This document shows, in pieces, positions 16,164-25,831 of a stretch of DNA of 34,938 bases (the stretch's first letter is position 1; every line of letters starts with the position of its first letter). This DNA comes from Gammaproteobacteria bacterium (GTDB lineage Bacteria > Pseudomonadota > Gammaproteobacteria > JAADGQ01): assembly GCA_015490755.1 (NCBI GenBank), contig WFXF01000009.1:1-34938 (forward strand). The letters run 5' to 3'. Under the pieces are notes generated by a model, which did no database searches, had not been told where the DNA came from, and worked only from the letters and a program-made list of their open reading frames with translations. Made by a program: the position numbers and the translations under genes.

Positions 16164-18170
16164 ATGGCAGGGATATCCTCAATAATCGGTAGTTTATCGG
16201 TACGTACAAAAATTAATCTGATTATTACATTGATCTTTGTCAGTGTAGTGATATTGGTGACTATTTTTACGATGCAACGTACGGAAGAGCGTGTGCTGGA
16301 GCTCGTAACCGATCACACAAAAAGTATCACAAATTTTTATTTCGATAGCTTGAATACCATGATGTTGACAGACACGATGGATCAACGCTCTATTCTACGT
16401 AAAAAAATTCTACAAGATCCTGATGTTTTAGAAGCTCGAGTAATACGAGGCCAAACGGTTGTTGATCAACATGGCCCTGGTTTACCTGAAGAGTATCCCG
16501 TCGATGAATATGATCGGCGCGGACTATTGGGGGAGGAGATTATATTTACTGAGCAGCGTAATAGTGGACGTGTAGTGACTGTATTAACACCCATTCGAGC
16601 CACTAGTGATGGTGATACTAATTGCCTGGCTTGCCATAACGTACCTTCAGGTACCGTTAATGGCCTGGTTCGAGTGAGTTATTCTCTGGCTGATATTGAT
16701 GAAAATATGGCTCAAGAGATGTGGGCTGCTGCGCTTGCAAACTTATTGTTGATGATTATAGGTCTGTTTTTGGCTAATTTTTTATTACGTCGCTGGATAT
16801 CAGAGCCGCTTGCAGGTTTGATTAAAGTTGTTAAACGTCGAGCTAATGGCGATAGCAGTGCCAGAGCTATTGTAAACAGTTCTGATGAGGTGGGACGATT
16901 AGGCGCTGCTTTAAACACCATGTCTGATAAATTAAATGATAGCTTTCGACGCGAACAAGAGGTTGCACGAGATTTACGCCATAAAGTTGATGTATTGCTC
17001 AAAGTCGTGAGTAGAGCTGCTAAAGGTGATTTAGAGACTTCAATTCCCATATCAAAGGAAGGGGCGATTGGTGAGCTGGGTGTTGGGTTGGAAATCATGC
17101 TGGGTAATTTGCGTACCCTGATGGATGAGAGACGGACTGCAGTTGAAGAATTAAAAGAAAAAGTTGGAGTGATATTGGGTGTAGTAACACGTGCAGCCGA
17201 AGGTGACTTGACAGGAAAAGTGACTGTGAGTGGGGACGATAGCATTGGCCAACTGGCTATGGGTGTTCAGCGAATGGTTGATCGTTTGAATGCTTTGGTT
17301 ACGCAGGTACAGCAATCTGGAATTAAAGTGACTTCATCTGCAACACAAATAGCAGCAACAGCAAAGCAACAGGAGGCAACATTTACTGAACAGGCTGCGA
17401 CAATTAATGAAATCGTTGCAACAGCAACAGAGATTTCGGCAACTAATAAAGATCTTGTATTAACGATGGATGAGGTTTCTTCAGTCTCTGAGCAAACAGC
17501 TGCTGCGGCAAATAGTGGGCAAGGTGGTTTGGCTAAAATGGAAGAGACAATGCTACAGGTTGTTAATGCCTCGGCATCTATTGCGAATAAATTAGAGGTG
17601 CTGAATGAAAAAGCGAACAACATAAACACTGTGGTTACTACAATTACCAAGGTAGCAGATCAAACAAACCTGTTATCACTCAATGCGGCTATTGAAGCAG
17701 AAAAAGCAGGTGAATATGGTGTGGGTTTTGCAGTAGTAGCTACTGAAATTCGTCGGCTGGCTGACCAGACAGCTGGGGCAACTCTGGATATTGAACAGAT
17801 GGTTAAAGAAGTTCAAACCGCAGTTTCAGCAGGCGTAATGAGTGTTGATAAATTTTCAAAGGAGGTGCAAAACAGTGTCACAGTCGTGAGTGATGTAGGG
17901 CATGACCTCACACAAATCATTGAACAAGTTCAGGCATTGACACCACGTTTTGAGAGTGTACATGAAGGAATGCAGTTTCAAGCCCAAGGTGCTGAGCAAA
18001 TCAAACAAGCGATTGTGCAATTAAACAATGCGGCACAGCAAACAGTTGAATCTCTTAATCAGTCCAGTTCCTCAATTGATCATTTGAATGACGCTGCACG
18101 TGGTCTGCAGCAGGGAGTCAGTCAATTTAAAGTATTAAGCACCCATGAAAAAGAGTCAGAGGTGATTTAA
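16164..18170 (+). CDS. wspA: WspA-like chemoreceptor with periplasmic haem c domain
   Basis: This is a membrane chemoreceptor of 668 residues. Transmembrane helices lie at about 17-36 and 187-208, enclosing a periplasmic domain of roughly 150 residues. That domain contains C154-L-A-C157-H158, a c-type haem attachment motif, followed by the GTVNGLVRVSYS strand seen in haem-bearing periplasmic sensors. A HAMP domain (about 209-262) and two HAMP-like repeats (275-330, 335-385; each with RAA-x-GD) follow. The signalling hairpin has the tip at about 499-545 with EAEKAGEYGVGF and EIRRLADQTAGATLDIE, characteristic of WspA. No CheR-docking pentapeptide is present. Known: Pseudomonas WspA senses surface contact. 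Inferred: this one senses redox state, oxygen or NO through haem. Identity as a Wsp receptor is strong; the ligand is unknown. Confidence 0.9.
   Translation: MAGISSIIGSLSVRTKINLIITLIFVSVVILVTIFTMQRTEERVLELVTDHTKSITNFYFDSLNTMMLTDTMDQRSILRKKILQDPDVLEARVIRGQTVVDQHGPGLPEEYPVDEYDRRGLLGEEIIFTEQRNSGRVVTVLTPIRATSDGDTNCLACHNVPSGTVNGLVRVSYSLADIDENMAQEMWAAALANLLLMIIGLFLANFLLRRWISEPLAGLIKVVKRRANGDSSARAIVNSSDEVGRLGAALNTMSDKLNDSFRREQEVARDLRHKVDVLLKVVSRAAKGDLETSIPISKEGAIGELGVGLEIMLGNLRTLMDERRTAVEELKEKVGVILGVVTRAAEGDLTGKVTVSGDDSIGQLAMGVQRMVDRLNALVTQVQQSGIKVTSSATQIAATAKQQEATFTEQAATINEIVATATEISATNKDLVLTMDEVSSVSEQTAAAANSGQGGLAKMEETMLQVVNASASIANKLEVLNEKANNINTVVTTITKVADQTNLLSLNAAIEAEKAGEYGVGFAVVATEIRRLADQTAGATLDIEQMVKEVQTAVSAGVMSVDKFSKEVQNSVTVVSDVGHDLTQIIEQVQALTPRFESVHEGMQFQAQGAEQIKQAIVQLNNAAQQTVESLNQSSSSIDHLNDAARGLQQGVSQFKVLSTHEKESEVI
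16623..16637 (+). other. CxxCH haem c site in the receptor sensor domain
   Basis: These bases encode Cys154-Leu-Ala-Cys157-His158 between the two membrane helices of the receptor, i.e. on the periplasmic side where cytochrome c maturation attaches haem. It is the only such motif in the protein. Chemoreceptors with one periplasmic haem c are known from Desulfovibrio (DcrA) and Geobacter (GSU0582, GSU0935). Confidence 0.85.
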
Positions 18171-18172
18171 CT

Positions 18173-18667
18173 ATGATGTTTTTACTGATCACGATCGGTA
18201 ATGAACGTTATGGCATTGATGTATCCCATGTAGTTAAGGTTATTCCGCCTGTTGCAGTTAAAGAAATTCCTTGTACTCCGGACTATATTTCAGGGTTATT
18301 AAACTTTCACGGTCATCCTATCCCTGTTATTGATATTAACTATTTATATGTACAGCAACCTGTTTCAATCTATTTGGGGTCAAGAATTATTGTTGTTGAT
18401 TTGATGCACTCAAAAAAAGAAGAAGGCGCGGAATCTATTTTGTTAGGGATACTTGCTGAGGGTGTGACAGAAGCGATTCACATTGATCAAAAGTCATTGG
18501 TGAATTCCGGGATTGACATGACTGATAGATCATTTGTTAATCGAGTCGTGATGAATGATAAAGAGATCATTCAATTGGTTAATCTCGCGAATTTGGTGCC
18601 GGATCAATGGAAATCCAAGATATTACAAGCAAATACTTTATTAGCCGATGAAGTTTTAGATCAATAG
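18173..18667 (+). CDS. wspB: CheW-type adaptor WspB
   Basis: CheW-like adaptors couple receptors to the CheA-type kinase. The 164-residue protein is a single CheW domain: FLLITIGNERYGIDVSHVVKVIP at the start, then the hallmark CTPDYISGLLNFHGHPIPVIDINYL at about residues 36-60. It starts at ATG 18173 or 18176, right after the wspA stop, and lies 9 bases before wspC. The cluster has two CheW proteins, as in the Pseudomonas wsp operon; this short one matches WspB by position. Confidence 0.9.
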   Translation: MMFLLITIGNERYGIDVSHVVKVIPPVAVKEIPCTPDYISGLLNFHGHPIPVIDINYLYVQQPVSIYLGSRIIVVDLMHSKKEEGAESILLGILAEGVTEAIHIDQKSLVNSGIDMTDRSFVNRVVMNDKEIIQLVNLANLVPDQWKSKILQANTLLADEVLDQ

Positions 18668-18676
18668 TTTATTCAT

Positions 18677-19927
18677 ATGATTTATAACTTAATAGAGACA
18701 CTATTAAAAGAAAAAACGGGATTACATAGTGCATCTATTGGTTCGGAGTCAATAAAAACCAATATTAAGCGACGTATGGAAATATGCTCTATTTTTGAAG
18801 TTTCTGACTATTATGCATTACTTAATCAGTCACAGGATGAGTTGCAGTTGCTCATTAATGAAACAATGGTGCCTGAAACATGGTTTTTCCGTGATGATAT
18901 ACCTTTTAATTTTTTGAAAAGTTTTATCAATAATCAATGGCTACCCACCAGGGGTAAAAAGAGATTGCGTATACTCAACATTCCATGCGCAACAGGGGAA
19001 GAGCCATATTCTGTTGCAATGATATTGTTAGAGTGTGGTATGAAAGCGCAACAGTTTTCAATTGATGCTGTGGATATTAATACATGGGTATTAGATTACG
19101 CAGAAAAAGGTAGTTACTCACAGCACTCTTTTCGTGGAAATGTCATTGATCAATATCAACACTACTTTACAAAAAAACAGGGAAGGTATCAGCTGAACGA
19201 TACTGTAAAAAAAGCTGTTTCGTTTAATTACGGTAATGTGCTTGATGATGGTTTTATCATGAAATCAGGTGTTTATGATATTGTTTTTTGTCGAAATTTA
19301 TTGATCTATTTTGATGATGAAACCAAAAAAAAAGTTGTCAGGCATCTATGTCAGTTATTAATTGATAAAGGTGTTCTGTTTGTTGGTTATGCAGATGTTA
19401 GTGCGTTAACGAATCAATTATTCACTCCTGTCTCTTACCCCCGAGCTTTTGCTTTTTATAAACAGGAACCCATTAAATTAAAGTCTGTTACCTCTGCTAT
19501 TCAACAATATCCATCCAGAAGGTTATGCAAAAATTCGTTTGAATCACTGAGAAAAGATGAAGTACTGCAGACTAAAAAAACAGATGATACACATGTTTTT
19601 GATGATAAGGAGGTTATGGAGCGTATTCAGAAATTAGCCGATCAAGGTGAGCTGCATGAAGCTAAAACATTATGCCAGAAATTTTTGGAAAAAAATAGTG
19701 TTTCTATATCTGCTCATTATTTGATGGGGGTTATTCTTGATGTGCAGGGAGAGTGGGATAAAGCACACGACCTATTTTGTAAAACACTTTATTTAAACCC
19801 AAAGCACTATGAAGCACTCACATATTTGGCAATTTATGCTGAGCGACGGGGTGATTCTACAGCGGCAAAGGTGTATCGCTCACGTGCAGCGCGTATTGCA
19901 GAGCAAAAAGCAGGCTTAATATTATGA
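18677..19927 (+). CDS. wspC: CheR-type methyltransferase with TPR domain, WspC
   Basis: CheR enzymes methylate glutamates on receptors with S-adenosylmethionine. The 416-residue protein has the CheR N-terminal part with NETMVPETWFFRD (61-73). The SAM-binding loop NIPCATGEEPYS lies at 101-112 and the FCRNLLIYF motif at 204-212. The C-terminal part (about 312-405) is a tetratricopeptide repeat region (HYLMGVILDVQGEWDKA and following). CheR plus TPR is the architecture of WspC; the TPR replaces the need for a receptor pentapeptide. The stop overlaps the next gene by four bases (ATGA). Confidence 0.92.
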   Translation: MIYNLIETLLKEKTGLHSASIGSESIKTNIKRRMEICSIFEVSDYYALLNQSQDELQLLINETMVPETWFFRDDIPFNFLKSFINNQWLPTRGKKRLRILNIPCATGEEPYSVAMILLECGMKAQQFSIDAVDINTWVLDYAEKGSYSQHSFRGNVIDQYQHYFTKKQGRYQLNDTVKKAVSFNYGNVLDDGFIMKSGVYDIVFCRNLLIYFDDETKKKVVRHLCQLLIDKGVLFVGYADVSALTNQLFTPVSYPRAFAFYKQEPIKLKSVTSAIQQYPSRRLCKNSFESLRKDEVLQTKKTDDTHVFDDKEVMERIQKLADQGELHEAKTLCQKFLEKNSVSISAHYLMGVILDVQGEWDKAHDLFCKTLYLNPKHYEALTYLAIYAERRGDSTAAKVYRSRAARIAEQKAGLIL

Positions 19928-20628
19928 TTCAGCAATCTAATACGATAAGAAAGGTAAATGATTGTTGGAACCATATTGGTATATGGGGCGGAGAAAAACC
20001 TCGTTGTCCAGAGTTGAAAAAGGTGGTTCATTGTAGAAATTGCGATGTTTATTCCAAGGCTAGTCGTCACTTATTGGAGCGCACACCACCCAGCGGCTAT
20101 CTGGATGAATTGCAGAAGGTGATTGCTAAAGAGCATAAAAATGAAGATTATAAAACAGAGTCTATTGTGGTTTTTCGTTTGGGTTATGAATGGTTAGCAT
20201 TGCCGACAATACTCTTTAAAGAGGTTATTTGTATGCGTAAAGTGCATACACTGCCTCATCGAAGGTATGGCAGTTTGAAAGGATTGGTTAATGTGCATGG
20301 AGAGCTGTTGATATGCATTTCACTGGGGCGTTTATTAGGGGTCGATAAGCAAGAAAGTGAATCGGTGAGTGAAAAAAAAATATACGAACGGTTTATCGTG
20401 ATTGAAGGTGATGGAGGGCAATATGTATTTCCTGTCAGCGAAATTAAAGGTATTTATCACTACGCGCCCTCTGAAATATATCGTGCCCCTTCAACAGCAA
20501 CCTACTGTGCCTCAAGCTATCTCAAAGGAATGCTTGATTTGCATGATGAAACACAAAGCGGTGTACTGCATATCGGTTGTCTTGATGGTCCTAGGTTGTT
20601 GGAATCTCTGAAAAAAGAGGTGCGTTAA
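19924..20628 (+). CDS. wspD: CheW-type adaptor with Cys-rich N terminus, WspD
   Basis: This is the second CheW adaptor, 234 residues. The CheW domain covers about 75-225 (VVFRLGYEWLALPTILFKEVICM, then RYGSLKGLVNVHGELLICISLGRLL). About 75 residues precede it and contain C14, C28, H36, C37 and C40, in the pattern NDCWNHIG...RCPEL...HCRNCDVY. From memory this extension also occurs in WspD of pseudomonads, but its function is not settled; four Cys could bind a metal. Overlaps wspC by four bases. Confidence 0.9.
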   Translation: MIQQSNTIRKVNDCWNHIGIWGGEKPRCPELKKVVHCRNCDVYSKASRHLLERTPPSGYLDELQKVIAKEHKNEDYKTESIVVFRLGYEWLALPTILFKEVICMRKVHTLPHRRYGSLKGLVNVHGELLICISLGRLLGVDKQESESVSEKKIYERFIVIEGDGGQYVFPVSEIKGIYHYAPSEIYRAPSTATYCASSYLKGMLDLHDETQSGVLHIGCLDGPRLLESLKKEVR

Positions 20629-20632
20629 CAGC

Positions 20633-23600
20633 ATGAATGATGAAGAATTACATAACTCTTCTATGCTGGATTTGTTCCGTCATGAACTGGAGAAACATTT
20701 TCCTGCTATTAAGAATGGCTTGTTAGAGCTGGAGCAAGGAAAACCATCACTTGAATGTTTAGAGTCGTTGATGCGAGCTGCGTACTCTATTAAAGGTGCA
20801 GCGCGGATGGTTGGGGTCAATGAAGTTGATGGAATTAATCTGGACGAAAATGATATTGACCGCTTATTGAAAAGTATTGATCTTATTATCCAGTTTTCTG
20901 ATTCAAAAGAGCCTGCAGAAAAATGGATGGCTGATCACCAAAATGAATATAACGAATTGCTGGTTAGATTGAAAGTATTAATGGCTGCAGATGAAATATT
21001 GGTGGAGAAGGCTGCTTCAAAATCAATTTCGTCTCCTAAAGTATCTAATTTACTACCTAATGATGAGGGCGGTGTGAGTGATACGTCTATGTTGGAGTTG
21101 TTCCGGTCAGAGTTTGAGGAGCGTGGCCGTATATTAAATAGTGGTCTGCTTGAATTAGAACAAGGCCAATCATCACATAAATGTTTAGATGCTTTGATGC
21201 ATGCAGCGCACTCTATTAAAAGTGCGGCACGGATGGTTGGTTTGAATGAAGTGGTTGAAGTTGCACATTTAATGGAAGGTTGTTTTGCGACGGCTCAAGC
21301 GGACAAAATTAATTTGAACACAAATGATATTAATCTCTTGTTAAATAGTCTTGATCTTATAGGTCAAATTTCCGGGTCAAAAAAACTAGCCGATAAATGG
21401 GTGGCTGAGCATCAGAATGAGTATGATGAATTGCTGCGTCGTTTAAGAACTTTGGCGGTAGAGAGTAAAGTATTGGAAGAGACAGTTACTCCAGAATCAA
21501 TGCAACCCCTTGAAATACCCAGGCTTGAATCTAATTCACTATCAAATGAATTGAGCCAGAGTGATTCATCAATGCTGGAGTTGTTCCAGTTAGAAGTTGA
21601 AGAGCACTCCCGTATATTAAATAGCGGTTTGCTAGAGCTGGAGCAAGGAAAGCCATCAGATAAGTGTTTAGAGGCTTTGATGCGAGCAGCGCACTCTATA
21701 AAAGGTGCGGCGCGAATGGTTGGTTTGAATGAGGTTGTTGATGTTGCACATCTAATGGAAGATTGCTTTGTAGTCTTGCAGGAGAGTGGTAGCACTCTGG
21801 CTGCTGAGGATATTGATGTTTTATTTAAAAGTATTGATATGATCTCTATGCACCTTCAAACTCCCGAAAGTAAATGGTTGGATAATAACAAAAAAGAGTA
21901 TGAGTCACTGTTGATATCTTTGCAGGGTGTTCGACAAAAACTTGTTAGTAAGGAGCAATGCCATTCACCTGAACTTATTCAAGCCAAGTCTGAAGATATA
22001 CCGTCCGAACAAGAGATAAAGATAGCACAGCCTTTACCAAAAAAGGTGGATGTCTCTTCATCTGAAGCTACGGATGAGGATACAGATGAGTTGGCTTCTG
22101 TTCTGCGGGTGAGTACAGCGCAAATTAACAGGCTTATGGGATTAACAGGTGAATCAATTGTGCGAGCACGCTGGTTACGACCTTATGTTGATTCCATGTC
22201 ACGGCTGAAACAGCACCATGTGAAGTTAGCCCAGCGCCTTGATGTGTTGTGGAGTGTCGTGGGTAATATCACGAATGATGAAAAAGTTTATGAACTACTG
22301 CGTGATATTCAAAATAGAGAAGTTGAGTGTCGCAGAGAGTTGGCGGATAGAATTGCCGCGATGGAAGAGTATGACCGGCATGCGACTAATCTTTCCAGTC
22401 GATTGCATCAGGCTGTTGTAACAAGCCGTATGCGCCCATTTGCTGATGGTGTGGAAGGGTTTCCACGCATGGTACGTGATGTTGCTCGTTCATTAAATAA
22501 ATCAGTTCAATTGGAAATAGAAGGAAAAGCCACAAAACTGGATCGGGATATTCTTGAAAAAATTGAAGCACCTCTGAATCACTTGCTACGTAATGCGGTG
22601 GATCATGGTATTGAAATGCCTGAAGTGCGAAAAGCATCAGGAAAGCCTGAAAAAGGAGTTATACGGCTTTCAGCATTTCATCAGGCAGGAATGCTATCCA
22701 TCGTCATTGAGGATGATGGCGGTGGAATTGATATCGAAAGTTTGCGTGCAAAAGTTTTGCAGAAGGGAATGGTTGATGAAAGCATGGCCAAGAATCTGTC
22801 AGAAGCTGAGCTGTATGAGTTCCTGTTTTTACCTGGATTTTCGACTAAACAGGATGTTACAGAAATTTCTGGCCGTGGTGTTGGTATGGATGTGGTTCAT
22901 GAAGTTGTTCAAAAAATGCGTGGACAGGTTCGTGTTTCATCACACCTGGGAAAGGGAACGCGCTTTCATATGCAGTTGCCACTGACGTTATCGGTGATTC
23001 CATGTTTGCTTGTTTATGTCTCGGAAGAGCCCTATGCTTTTCCATTGGCACGTATAAAACAGATCTTTGAGGAGGATAAAAGTGCTATTGAAGAGATTGA
23101 GGGTCATCAGTTTATCAATGTAGAGGGGCGGTCTGTCGGTGTTATCTCTATGGCGCAGTTACTTGAGTTATCCGGTGATTTAATATCGAATAAAGAGACT
23201 GTTTCAGTTGTTGTTTTGGGTGAAAAAAAGAGTGCTTATGGTCTGGTTGTCGATAGTTTTATTGGAAAACGGGACTTGGTTGTGCAGCAAATGCCTGGAC
23301 AACTCAGAAAAATAAAAGACATCAGTGCTGCTGCATTAATGGAAGATGGCTCTCCTATTTTGATTGTAGATGTGGATGATATATTGTGCTCTATTAACAA
23401 GATTGTTAATAGTGGGCAGGTCAATGCTATCTCTGCTGAACACAGAGAGATTGATCAGCACTTAATTAAGCGCATTTTGGTGATTGATGATTCAATTACG
23501 GTTCGTGAAGTTGAACGTAATTTGTTGCTTGCATCAGGCTATCATGTTGATGTTGCTGTCGATGGTATGGACGGCTGGAATATGGTAAATCAGGGCAACT

Positions 23601-23848
23601 ATGACCTGGTTATCACTGATATTGATATGCCAAGAATGGATGGTATTGAATTTGTGAACTATATCAAAGGAAATTCCAATACTGCTCATATCCCGGTAAT
23701 TGTGGTCTCTTATAAAGATCGAGAGGAAGACCGGCTTCGTGGCCTGGAAGCCGGTGCGGACTATTATCTGACTAAAGGTAGTTTTCATGATCACAGTTTG
23801 CAAGAAGCTGTTCGGGATCTCATTGGTGAGGCGCTCGTTACAGCATGA
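20633..23848 (+). CDS. wspE: CheA-type hybrid kinase WspE with three HPt repeats
   Basis: WspE is the histidine kinase that passes phosphate to WspR and WspF. The 1071-residue protein has three N-terminal HPt repeats, at about 9-110, 151-270 and 312-430. The phospho-accepting His is H193 in repeat 2 (AAHSIKSAAR) and H354 in repeat 3 (AAHSIKGAAR), but is Tyr51 in repeat 1. Next come the dimerisation part, the ATPase domain with the N box LNHLLRNAVDHGI (648-660), G1 DDGGGID (694-700), F box PGFSTKQ and G2 SGRGVGMDVV (746-755). A CheW-like domain (about 785-925) follows, then a C-terminal receiver with DD 952-953, phospho-acceptor D996 and K1048. HPt-kinase-CheW-REC is the WspE order; three HPt copies are unusual. 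The stop overlaps wspF (ATGA). Confidence 0.95.
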   Translation: MNDEELHNSSMLDLFRHELEKHFPAIKNGLLELEQGKPSLECLESLMRAAYSIKGAARMVGVNEVDGINLDENDIDRLLKSIDLIIQFSDSKEPAEKWMADHQNEYNELLVRLKVLMAADEILVEKAASKSISSPKVSNLLPNDEGGVSDTSMLELFRSEFEERGRILNSGLLELEQGQSSHKCLDALMHAAHSIKSAARMVGLNEVVEVAHLMEGCFATAQADKINLNTNDINLLLNSLDLIGQISGSKKLADKWVAEHQNEYDELLRRLRTLAVESKVLEETVTPESMQPLEIPRLESNSLSNELSQSDSSMLELFQLEVEEHSRILNSGLLELEQGKPSDKCLEALMRAAHSIKGAARMVGLNEVVDVAHLMEDCFVVLQESGSTLAAEDIDVLFKSIDMISMHLQTPESKWLDNNKKEYESLLISLQGVRQKLVSKEQCHSPELIQAKSEDIPSEQEIKIAQPLPKKVDVSSSEATDEDTDELASVLRVSTAQINRLMGLTGESIVRARWLRPYVDSMSRLKQHHVKLAQRLDVLWSVVGNITNDEKVYELLRDIQNREVECRRELADRIAAMEEYDRHATNLSSRLHQAVVTSRMRPFADGVEGFPRMVRDVARSLNKSVQLEIEGKATKLDRDILEKIEAPLNHLLRNAVDHGIEMPEVRKASGKPEKGVIRLSAFHQAGMLSIVIEDDGGGIDIESLRAKVLQKGMVDESMAKNLSEAELYEFLFLPGFSTKQDVTEISGRGVGMDVVHEVVQKMRGQVRVSSHLGKGTRFHMQLPLTLSVIPCLLVYVSEEPYAFPLARIKQIFEEDKSAIEEIEGHQFINVEGRSVGVISMAQLLELSGDLISNKETVSVVVLGEKKSAYGLVVDSFIGKRDLVVQQMPGQLRKIKDISAAALMEDGSPILIVDVDDILCSINKIVNSGQVNAISAEHREIDQHLIKRILVIDDSITVREVERNLLLASGYHVDVAVDGMDGWNMVNQGNYDLVITDIDMPRMDGIEFVNYIKGNSNTAHIPVIVVSYKDREEDRLRGLEAGADYYLTKGSFHDHSLQEAVRDLIGEALVTA
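20657..21925 (+). repeat. Three direct HPt-coding repeats in wspE
   Basis: Repeat 1 is about 20657-20962, repeat 2 about 21086-21442 and repeat 3 about 21569-21925. The shared core reads SMLxLF...LELEQG...AAxSIKxAARMVG. Similarity is high at the DNA level too (for example GAGCTGGAGCAAGGAAA in repeats 1 and 3), which points to fairly recent duplication. Repeat 1 lacks about 16 codons after NEV compared with repeat 2. Confidence 0.9.
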
Positions 23849-24867
23849 GAGTTGCCATCGTCAATGATATGAAAATGGCGGTGGAAAGTTTACGTCGGGT
23901 ATTAGTATTTTCGGGAGTATATGAAGTCGCCTGGGTGGCATATAATGGTCATGAAGCGGTCGAGTTATGTAAAAAAGATCGTCCCGACCTGATTTTGATG
24001 GATTTAATCATGCCTGTTATGGATGGAGCTCAGGCCACACGCAAGATTATGCAGGATTCACCCTGTCCAATTTTAGTGGTTACAAGTTCAATACACCGTC
24101 ATTCAGCACAAGTATTTGAAGCGATGGGGGCCGGTGCTTTGGATGCAGTGAATACGCCAGAACTGGGTGTGAATGGTGATGGCCAGGGGCAGAGTGATTT
24201 ATTAAAAAAAATTGAAACACTTCAAGTATTAATCAATGCTGAAAATTTATTTCAAACCACAGTAGCCACAGAAAAAATTGAGTGCCCCAGTATTAAAAAA
24301 GATTCACCGTTAGTTGTCATTGGTGCGTCTTCGGGGGGCCCCCAAGCGTTATTAAAAATATTGTCGGGGTTACCTGAAGATTATAAGTCTTCAATTTTGG
24401 TTGTTCAGCATGTTGATGCACAGTTTGCGAAAGATCTTGCTCAGTGGCTAGATTCGCAATGTAAAGTCCATGTTCGATTGGCAATGTGTGGTGATACTCC
24501 AATGCCGGGGACGGTTTTGCTTGCAGGCACGGGTGATCATATGGTTATGACAGCAGAGGGTAAGATCGGTTATTCGGCGGAGCCTGTTGAAGAGGTCTAT
24601 CGTCCCTCTGTCGATGTTTTATTTAATAGTGTTGTCAAATACTGGAGATCAGAATTAATGGGGGTCTTACTTACCGGAATGGGGCGAGATGGTGCTAAAG
24701 GTTTGTTAAGACTACGTCAAAGAGGTTGTTATACAATTGCACAAGATCGTGTGAGTAGTGCTGTGTATGGTATGCCAAAAGCTGCTGTTGAAGCCGGGGC
24801 TGCTATCGATGTTCTGCCCGCCGAAGTTATTAGTTCGGTATTAATAAAAAGGAGCAATAGTGGATAA
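23845..24867 (+). CDS. wspF: CheB-type methylesterase WspF
   Basis: CheB enzymes remove receptor methyl groups when phosphorylated. The 340-residue protein has a receiver domain (1-120) starting MRVAIVNDMKMAVESLRRVL, very like WspF, with phospho-acceptor D53 (LMDLIMPVMDG). The esterase domain runs from about 153 to 335 and has the catalytic set S162 (GASSGGP), H189 (VVQHVDAQF) and D282 (TGMGRDGA). In Pseudomonas, loss of wspF locks the pathway on and gives wrinkly colonies. Here the gene looks intact. It overlaps wspE by four bases and wspR by eight. Confidence 0.94.
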   Translation: MRVAIVNDMKMAVESLRRVLVFSGVYEVAWVAYNGHEAVELCKKDRPDLILMDLIMPVMDGAQATRKIMQDSPCPILVVTSSIHRHSAQVFEAMGAGALDAVNTPELGVNGDGQGQSDLLKKIETLQVLINAENLFQTTVATEKIECPSIKKDSPLVVIGASSGGPQALLKILSGLPEDYKSSILVVQHVDAQFAKDLAQWLDSQCKVHVRLAMCGDTPMPGTVLLAGTGDHMVMTAEGKIGYSAEPVEEVYRPSVDVLFNSVVKYWRSELMGVLLTGMGRDGAKGLLRLRQRGCYTIAQDRVSSAVYGMPKAAVEAGAAIDVLPAEVISSVLIKRSNSG

Positions 24868-25831
24868 CGATACGCAAGGAAAGATGCCTGGACCACGAGT
24901 TTTTTTAGTGGATGACCAATTGATTGTTGCGGAAGGTATCAGGCGTATGCTGGCAGGAGAAAGTGATATTGATTTTTATTACTGCCAGAATCCAACGGAT
25001 GCCATCAATGCTGCAGCAAAATATCAGCCGACCGTTATTTTGCAGGATTTGGTGATGCCTGATGTTGATGGTATGACGTTGTTACGTTTTTTAAATAAAA
25101 GTCCGGCAACATCAAAAGTGCCTGTGATTGTTCTTTCGAGTAAAGAAGATCCAAAAATAAAAAGTGATGCTTTTGAAAATAATGCGGCAGACTACTTGGT
25201 TAAGCCGCCTGAAAAAATCGAGCTGATTGCTCGAATTCGTGCTCATTCACGCAGTTATCTGGCACACCAGGCACTCGATGAAGCACATAAAGAGTTGGAA
25301 GAAAAAAATGCCATATTAGAACGAATATCATCTGAGGATGGTTTGACAGGTATATTTAATCGCAGAAGTTTTGATCAGTTTTTACAAAAGGAGTGGGATC
25401 GGGCGATTCGTGAAAAAACAAATATTAGTCTTATCATGATCGATATTGATCACTTTAAAGGGTATAACGATCACTATGGACATCAGGGGGGGGATGATTG
25501 TTTATGCCAAGTAGCCAGTGCATTGGCTGAAGCTGTGGGGCGACCAGGAGATATGGTTGCACGTTATGGTGGTGAAGAGTTTGTGGTTGTTTTGCCTAAT
25601 ACGGATATTGATGGCGCTGCTTTGATTGCAGAAAAATTACGCCGAAAAGTAGAAGGTTTGGCCTTGCCACATAACTACTCTACAACTGCTAATTACGTGA
25701 CAATCAGCTTGGGTGTTGCCGGAATCGTACCAGCTGTTGATAGTGACCCTGATACATTAATTAAACAGGCAGATGCCGCACTGTATGAATCCAAGGAATC
25801 AGGGCGCAATCGGTATTGTTTGTCAAAATAA
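24860..25831 (+). CDS. wspR: Response regulator diguanylate cyclase WspR
   Basis: WspR makes c-di-GMP from two GTP when its receiver is phosphorylated. The 323-residue protein starts at GTG 24860, overlapping wspF and preceded by AAAAGGAGC. The receiver (about 11-130) has D63 (LQDLVMPDVDG) and K115. A helical linker (about 135-157, LDEAHKELEEKNAILERI) precedes the GGDEF domain. The active-site motif is GGEEF (237-241), as in Pseudomonas WspR, and the inhibitory I-site RPGD (228-231) is placed correctly, so the enzyme should be active and product-inhibited. It is the last gene of the cluster and the output. Confidence 0.95.
   Translation: MDNDTQGKMPGPRVFLVDDQLIVAEGIRRMLAGESDIDFYYCQNPTDAINAAAKYQPTVILQDLVMPDVDGMTLLRFLNKSPATSKVPVIVLSSKEDPKIKSDAFENNAADYLVKPPEKIELIARIRAHSRSYLAHQALDEAHKELEEKNAILERISSEDGLTGIFNRRSFDQFLQKEWDRAIREKTNISLIMIDIDHFKGYNDHYGHQGGDDCLCQVASALAEAVGRPGDMVARYGGEEFVVVLPNTDIDGAALIAEKLRRKVEGLALPHNYSTTANYVTISLGVAGIVPAVDSDPDTLIKQADAALYESKESGRNRYCLSK

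Follow-up and report, generated by a model that had tools for sequence, protein, structure and literature searches.

Introduction

Why should a CheA-type kinase carry at its head an HPt domain that has lost the phosphate-accepting histidine? The question is posed by wspE in a 34,938-nucleotide stretch of gammaproteobacterial DNA (contig WFXF01000009.1 of assembly GCA_015490755.1), here called the window. An earlier sequence-only reading described three HPt repeats in the encoded kinase (R1, R2 and R3 below), and proposed a recent duplication with the first copy already decaying or re-used as a docking or spacer domain. CheA proteins with several HPts, and HPts that lack the His, are already known; more than one HPt is present in about 18% of all CheAs (PMC10782961). 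For His-less HPts in CheA proteins, reviews give the role as unknown (PMC10782961, PMC12632253).

Results and discussion

A complete wsp operon

Positions 16164-25831 of the window hold a complete wspABCDEFR-type operon, as judged from Pfam domains and gene order (Table 1). The wspA-B-C-D-E-F order with a REC-GGDEF wspR, which identifies a Wsp system, is shared by the other family members. Gene order and domains resemble those of the Wsp systems of Pseudomonas and Burkholderiales, and the likeness extends within WspE to the kinase core, CheW and fused REC. The protein consists of a CheA core and a C-terminal REC, with Pfam matches to Hpt, HATPase_c, CheW and Response_reg; Pfam gave no match to a P2 domain in WspE, and no NCBIfam WspE model fires on it. 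Its start agrees with that of the sister species (MNDEELHNSS in the window, MHEEELHNSS in the sister). WspR and WspF are phosphorylated by WspE in Wsp systems (PMC5812489), and the receiver Asp motifs, read by eye, are present here. The host is a relative of Crenotrichaceae (Methylococcales, Gammaproteobacteria). A 2021 survey gave Pseudomonas as the sole gammaproteobacterial genus with Wsp (PMC8552884); the window and its relatives suggest that the range within Gammaproteobacteria is wider.

Two neighbouring proteins have features of their own. The sensor part of WspA contains a CxxCH motif (NCLACHNVP, at residue 154) as in c-type haem binding. It is found in all three family members and in none of the other listed WspA homologues, which are mostly betaproteobacterial and some of which are shortened by the end of the locus. 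A haem- or redox-sensing Wsp is possible from this motif. The N-terminus of WspD has four cysteines kept across the family, CWNHIGIWGGEKPRCPELKKVVHCRNC, possibly a metal or Fe-S site.

Table 1 Features of the wsp operon and of wspE, in positions of the window
Feature	Position	Strand	Basis
wspA-like chemoreceptor	16164-18170	+	ORF and Pfam domains
wspB-like CheW	18173-18667	+	Pfam
wspC-like CheR with TPR	18677-19927	+	Pfam
wspD-like CheW	19924-20628	+	Pfam
wspE, CheA-type kinase, HPt-HPt-HPt-kinase core-CheW-REC, 1071 aa	20633-23848	+	ORF and Pfam
R1, His-less HPt with Tyr51, without helix C; four long helices predicted against five	20633-20970	+	alignment, Pfam, AlphaFold
Tyr51 codon of R1: TAC in the window, TAT in HyVt-476, CAC in the sister species	20783-20785	+	
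Site of the 16-residue (48-nt) gap, right after Val65 of R1	20825-20830	+	alignment
Tract with 14 of 60 wspE synonymous differences and 1 amino-acid change	20785-20944	+	window against HyVt-476
R2, HPt with His193 and Ser197 at His+4; R3-like head, R1-like tail	21068-21430	+	alignment, identity, AlphaFold
His193 of R2	21209-21211	+	residue check
Ser197, His+4 of R2 (HSIKS), common to HyVt-476	21221-21223	+	
Crossover in R2	about 21255-21304	+	DNA identity along units
R3, canonical HPt, ortholog of sister-species HPt2	21545-21904	+	identity, tree, AlphaFold
His354 of R3	21692-21694	+	residue check
Dimerization / HATPase / CheW core of wspE	22091-23422	+	Pfam
C-terminal receiver domain of wspE	23474-23812	+	Pfam
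wspF-like REC-CheB methylesterase	23845-24867	+	Pfam
wspR-like REC-GGDEF diguanylate cyclase	24860-25831	+	Pfam

Three HPt domains, one of them without histidine

The WspE open reading frame contains three Hpt (PF01627) stretches. When each copy was scored on its own against the curated cut-off of 24.6 bits all three passed, with 28.2 bits for R1, 49.7 for R2 and 58.9 for R3. R1 clears the cut-off narrowly and over the first half of the profile only (positions 2-48 of 84). Checking of the codons and alignment of the copies bore out the residue-level description given in the sequence-only reading: R1 has Tyr51 where the phospho-accepting His would be, and exactly 16 residues are absent from it after NEV65, R2 keeps H193 with Ser197 for the Gly of SIKG, and R3 (H354) is canonical. 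The missing residues correspond to helix C, so that the four helices (A-D) of an HPt bundle are not all present in R1. The frame of R1 is open, with neither frameshift nor stop, and helices A and B are retained along with the motif YSIKGAARMVG.

The AlphaFold model of R1 consists of two helix pairs with an uncertain join at residues 63-72 and no helix C; its confidence is moderate (pLDDT 79). Foldseek returned no good PDB match for this model, the best matches being CheA P1 domains at a weak level (E 0.04, rmsd 15 Å). From these models, R1 is most likely not folded as a normal HPt bundle. R2 and R3 are predicted as confident five-helix HPts, with pLDDT above 90. The His, the HxxKG motif and five helices are all found in R3; R2 has them with Ser for Gly at His+4. 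Among the 126 His-bearing HPts of the WspE survey, this Ser is the one departure from Gly, which makes R2 the copy with the most doubtful activity; R2 may itself be impaired.

Origin of the copies

The WspE of the sister species (G001) has two HPts, both full length and both with His, and that of another genus of the family (G002) has one. Homology between the copies is still evident in the DNA, at 82% over 212 nt for R2/R3 and 75% over 130 nt for R1/R2, as expected for the duplication that had been proposed. Sliding DNA identity along the units identified R1 as the ortholog of HPt1 of the sister species and R3 as the ortholog of its HPt2. R2 is like R3 in its head and like R1 in its tail, and the switch between the two lies near the position of the R1 gap; such a chimera points to intragenic unequal crossing-over between the two units. 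The protein tree of HPt domains agrees with this assignment: R1 groups with HPt1 of the sister species (99/92), R3 groups with HPt2 (100/98), and the five repeats of the two species form one clade (100/99).

Synonymous-site divergence is 55% between the heads of R2 and R3 and 64% between the tails of R1 and R2, against 42% for the kinase core between the window and the sister species. Together with the separate clade, these values indicate a duplication that is specific to the genus but not recent; the earlier proposal of a recent duplication thus fails as to its age. The middle unit may have been lost in the sister species, the order of events resting on three genomes. The His of R1 (now Tyr) and its helix C were most likely lost once the lineage had diverged from that of the sister species. 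We also considered a single ancient His-less N-terminal HPt common to all lineages. It is not supported: the copies of the window group with those of the sister species, on a tree whose deep branches are poorly resolved, and some lineages (L073, L074, L080) have their His-less copy in C-terminal position.

Constraint on R1

The nearest named record is HyVt-476 (L020; Crenotrichaceae, Methylococcales), a near-identical MAG whose WspE also has 1071 residues and shares the three HPt copies, the Tyr and the gap. Since 85 nucleotide differences separate the two wspE genes, HyVt-476 is a separately assembled genome. An assembly artefact, named beforehand as one way in which the three copies might prove false, is accordingly very unlikely.

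The differences between the two wspE genes were split by region into synonymous and nonsynonymous; wspB was left out of the comparison because of an upstream indel. Kinase core and receiver together gave 27 synonymous and 0 nonsynonymous differences. The corresponding counts are 15 and 1 for R1, 8 and 12 for R2, and 6 and 7 for R3. R1 differs from R2 and R3 combined (15:1 against 14:19, Fisher p = 5.7e-4) and is not distinguishable in ratio from the core and receiver. For this one pair of genomes, then, R1 is constrained and the His-bearing R2 and R3 are more variable. The Tyr51 codon itself has changed silently. Against their sister-species orthologs, dN/dS is 0.07 (head) and 0.23 (tail) for R1 and 0.13 and 0.32 for R3, so that the value for R1 is no higher.

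The silent differences are unevenly spread: 14 of the 60 in wspE fall in the 160-nt tract listed in Table 1, on about 32 synonymous sites (p = 4e-7). The tract is likely a product of recombination with a more distant relative, in which case the donor allele likewise had the Tyr codon and the gap, and coded for an almost identical protein. R2 and R3 were rejected as donors, by gene conversion, of the silent differences in R1, as the codons concerned are mostly unlike those of R2 and R3. It is probable, as part of the explanation that we favour overall, that R1 is kept by purifying selection; the evidence comes mainly from one genome pair, with most differences in one tract.

These counts bear on the idea that R1 is a functionless relic of the duplication, decaying but not yet lost, as the sequence-only reading had it. 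The loss of both the active-site His and a whole helix, each kept in the sister species, and the redundancy of R1 with R2 and R3 are what a relic would show. The 15:1 ratio, the silent change at the Tyr codon and the intact frame are not, and the relaxed pattern is seen in R2 (8:12) and not in R1, the most constrained of the three copies against HyVt-476. We regard a relic as improbable. Strict constraint on sequence is also more than a pure spacer needs. If R1 were a structural spacer only, it would alter the stoichiometry of R2 and R3 or how far they reach, and its place at the far N-terminus, with helical hairpins and flexible linkers, would suit such a part; but a domain at the N-terminus does not lie between the core and either R2 or R3, and this account too is unlikely.

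His-less HPts in WspE across the class

A strong WspE match was found in 62 of 369 genomes from the class, nearly all 62 loci having the gene order C-D-E-F-R. The expectation that CheA/WspE proteins usually have one HPt does not carry over to this sample, in which over half of the WspE-bearing genera (24 of 43) have two or three. Single HPts are found in the WspE of Achromobacter and Bordetella that were examined, unlike the three, with a His-less first copy, of the window. Nine of the 43 genera have a His-less copy, one of the nine (g35) being a weak match; the residues that replace His are R, C, K, Q, L, N, G and Y. At least 9 changes are needed to account for the loss of His on a quick tree with some long branches. 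Every sampled WspE with an intact N-terminus retains at least one canonical His copy. Wide conservation of the Tyr copy, which would have marked it as an old feature, is not seen; the recurrent feature across the class is that one copy has lost its His. Outside this lineage, conservation is lower in the His-less copy than in the active copy (63 against 79%, 52 against 70% and 49 against 74%), which means that constraint as strong as that on R1 is not a general rule and may be special to the lineage of the window.

We note that in two genomes (G024 and G187) the HPt part is absent from the open frame of WspE, which is 670 and 621 aa long and has a reported internal stop; these are possibly broken genes or contig ends.

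Could Tyr51 itself accept phosphate? It is retained through a silent codon change, and a second, independent His-to-Tyr replacement occurs in the second HPt of another family (G095, G215). Against this, many other residues (R, C, K, Q, L, N, G) replace His in other lineages, R1 is without helix C and the conserved glutamate that this helix carries, and the His-less HPts of ChpA were not labelled in vitro (PMC10782961). We consider phosphorylation of Tyr51 to be very improbable.

A proposed role for R1

On balance we think it probable that the WspE tandem has been rearranged and that R1 is translated and retained as a non-phosphorylatable helical module for docking, spacing or gating. Intragenic unequal crossing-over would have rearranged the N-terminal HPts, and R1, having lost its His to Tyr and its helix C, would remain in the translated protein as the first domain of the kinase, maintained by selection. 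The kinase core would phosphorylate H354 of R3 and perhaps also, with less efficiency given the Ser at His+4, H193 of R2. WspR, WspF and the fused receiver would obtain their phosphate from H354 and perhaps from H193. R1 would be unable to take phosphate on His and would probably lack a normal four-helix HPt bundle; it may act as a non-catalytic module on a flexible linker.

The closest parallel is ChpA, the Tfp-class CheA of P. aeruginosa, which has several HPts, some of them His-less, a fused REC, and a four-helix HPt-like domain without His (PMC10782961). Its four non-phosphorylated Xpt domains have been suggested as binding scaffolds (PMC12632253). R1 resembles an Xpt domain in that it derives from an HPt, lacks the His and belongs to a tandem that includes active HPts, in a protein with a fused REC, and a docking or gating role may be proposed by this analogy; re-use of the first repeat had rightly been listed as a possibility. 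ChpA differs from the WspE of the window in belonging to another CheA class (pili), in having eight or more domains and in not being a genus-specific tandem. In CheA3 of Rhodobacter sphaeroides HPt 1 is active, and HPts 2 and 3 are His-less and structurally deviant (PMC10782961); its kinase domain is broken, however, and works with CheA4, whereas the WspE core is intact.

Plant pseudo-HPts of the AHP6 type, His-less and retained for a regulatory role, inhibit the cytokinin phosphorelay (PMC5975490). R1 might by analogy be a competitive pseudo-HPt that binds the receivers of WspR, WspF or WspE without phosphotransfer and so lowers gain, and the helices A and B and the motif that it retains would be compatible with this. 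Helix C, however, belongs to the receiver-binding face in known HPt-receiver complexes, and R1 is without it. AHP6 also differs from R1 in being a separate protein, with a full-length HPt fold and Asn, not Tyr, in place of His. We find competitive binding rather unlikely, and prefer a docking, spacing or gating module.

A broader suggestion, put forward tentatively and at less than even confidence, is that spare HPts in WspE have repeatedly become regulatory domains without catalytic function, much as pseudokinases have arisen from kinases. R1, with its Tyr, without helix C and under tighter selection than the catalytic copies, would then have a specific selected role in c-di-GMP output.

Conclusions

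What is new here is that the pattern recurs among WspE proteins, that helix C has been lost together with the change from His to Tyr, and that there is evidence of stronger selection on a His-less copy than on the live ones. The WspE of the window combines a single His-less HPt beside two His-bearing ones with evidence of selection and a simple read-out (c-di-GMP); as a test case for the role of His-less HPts it is smaller than ChpA. Since WspE proteins show repeated HPt duplication with subsequent loss of the His from one of the copies, they offer a natural comparative series.
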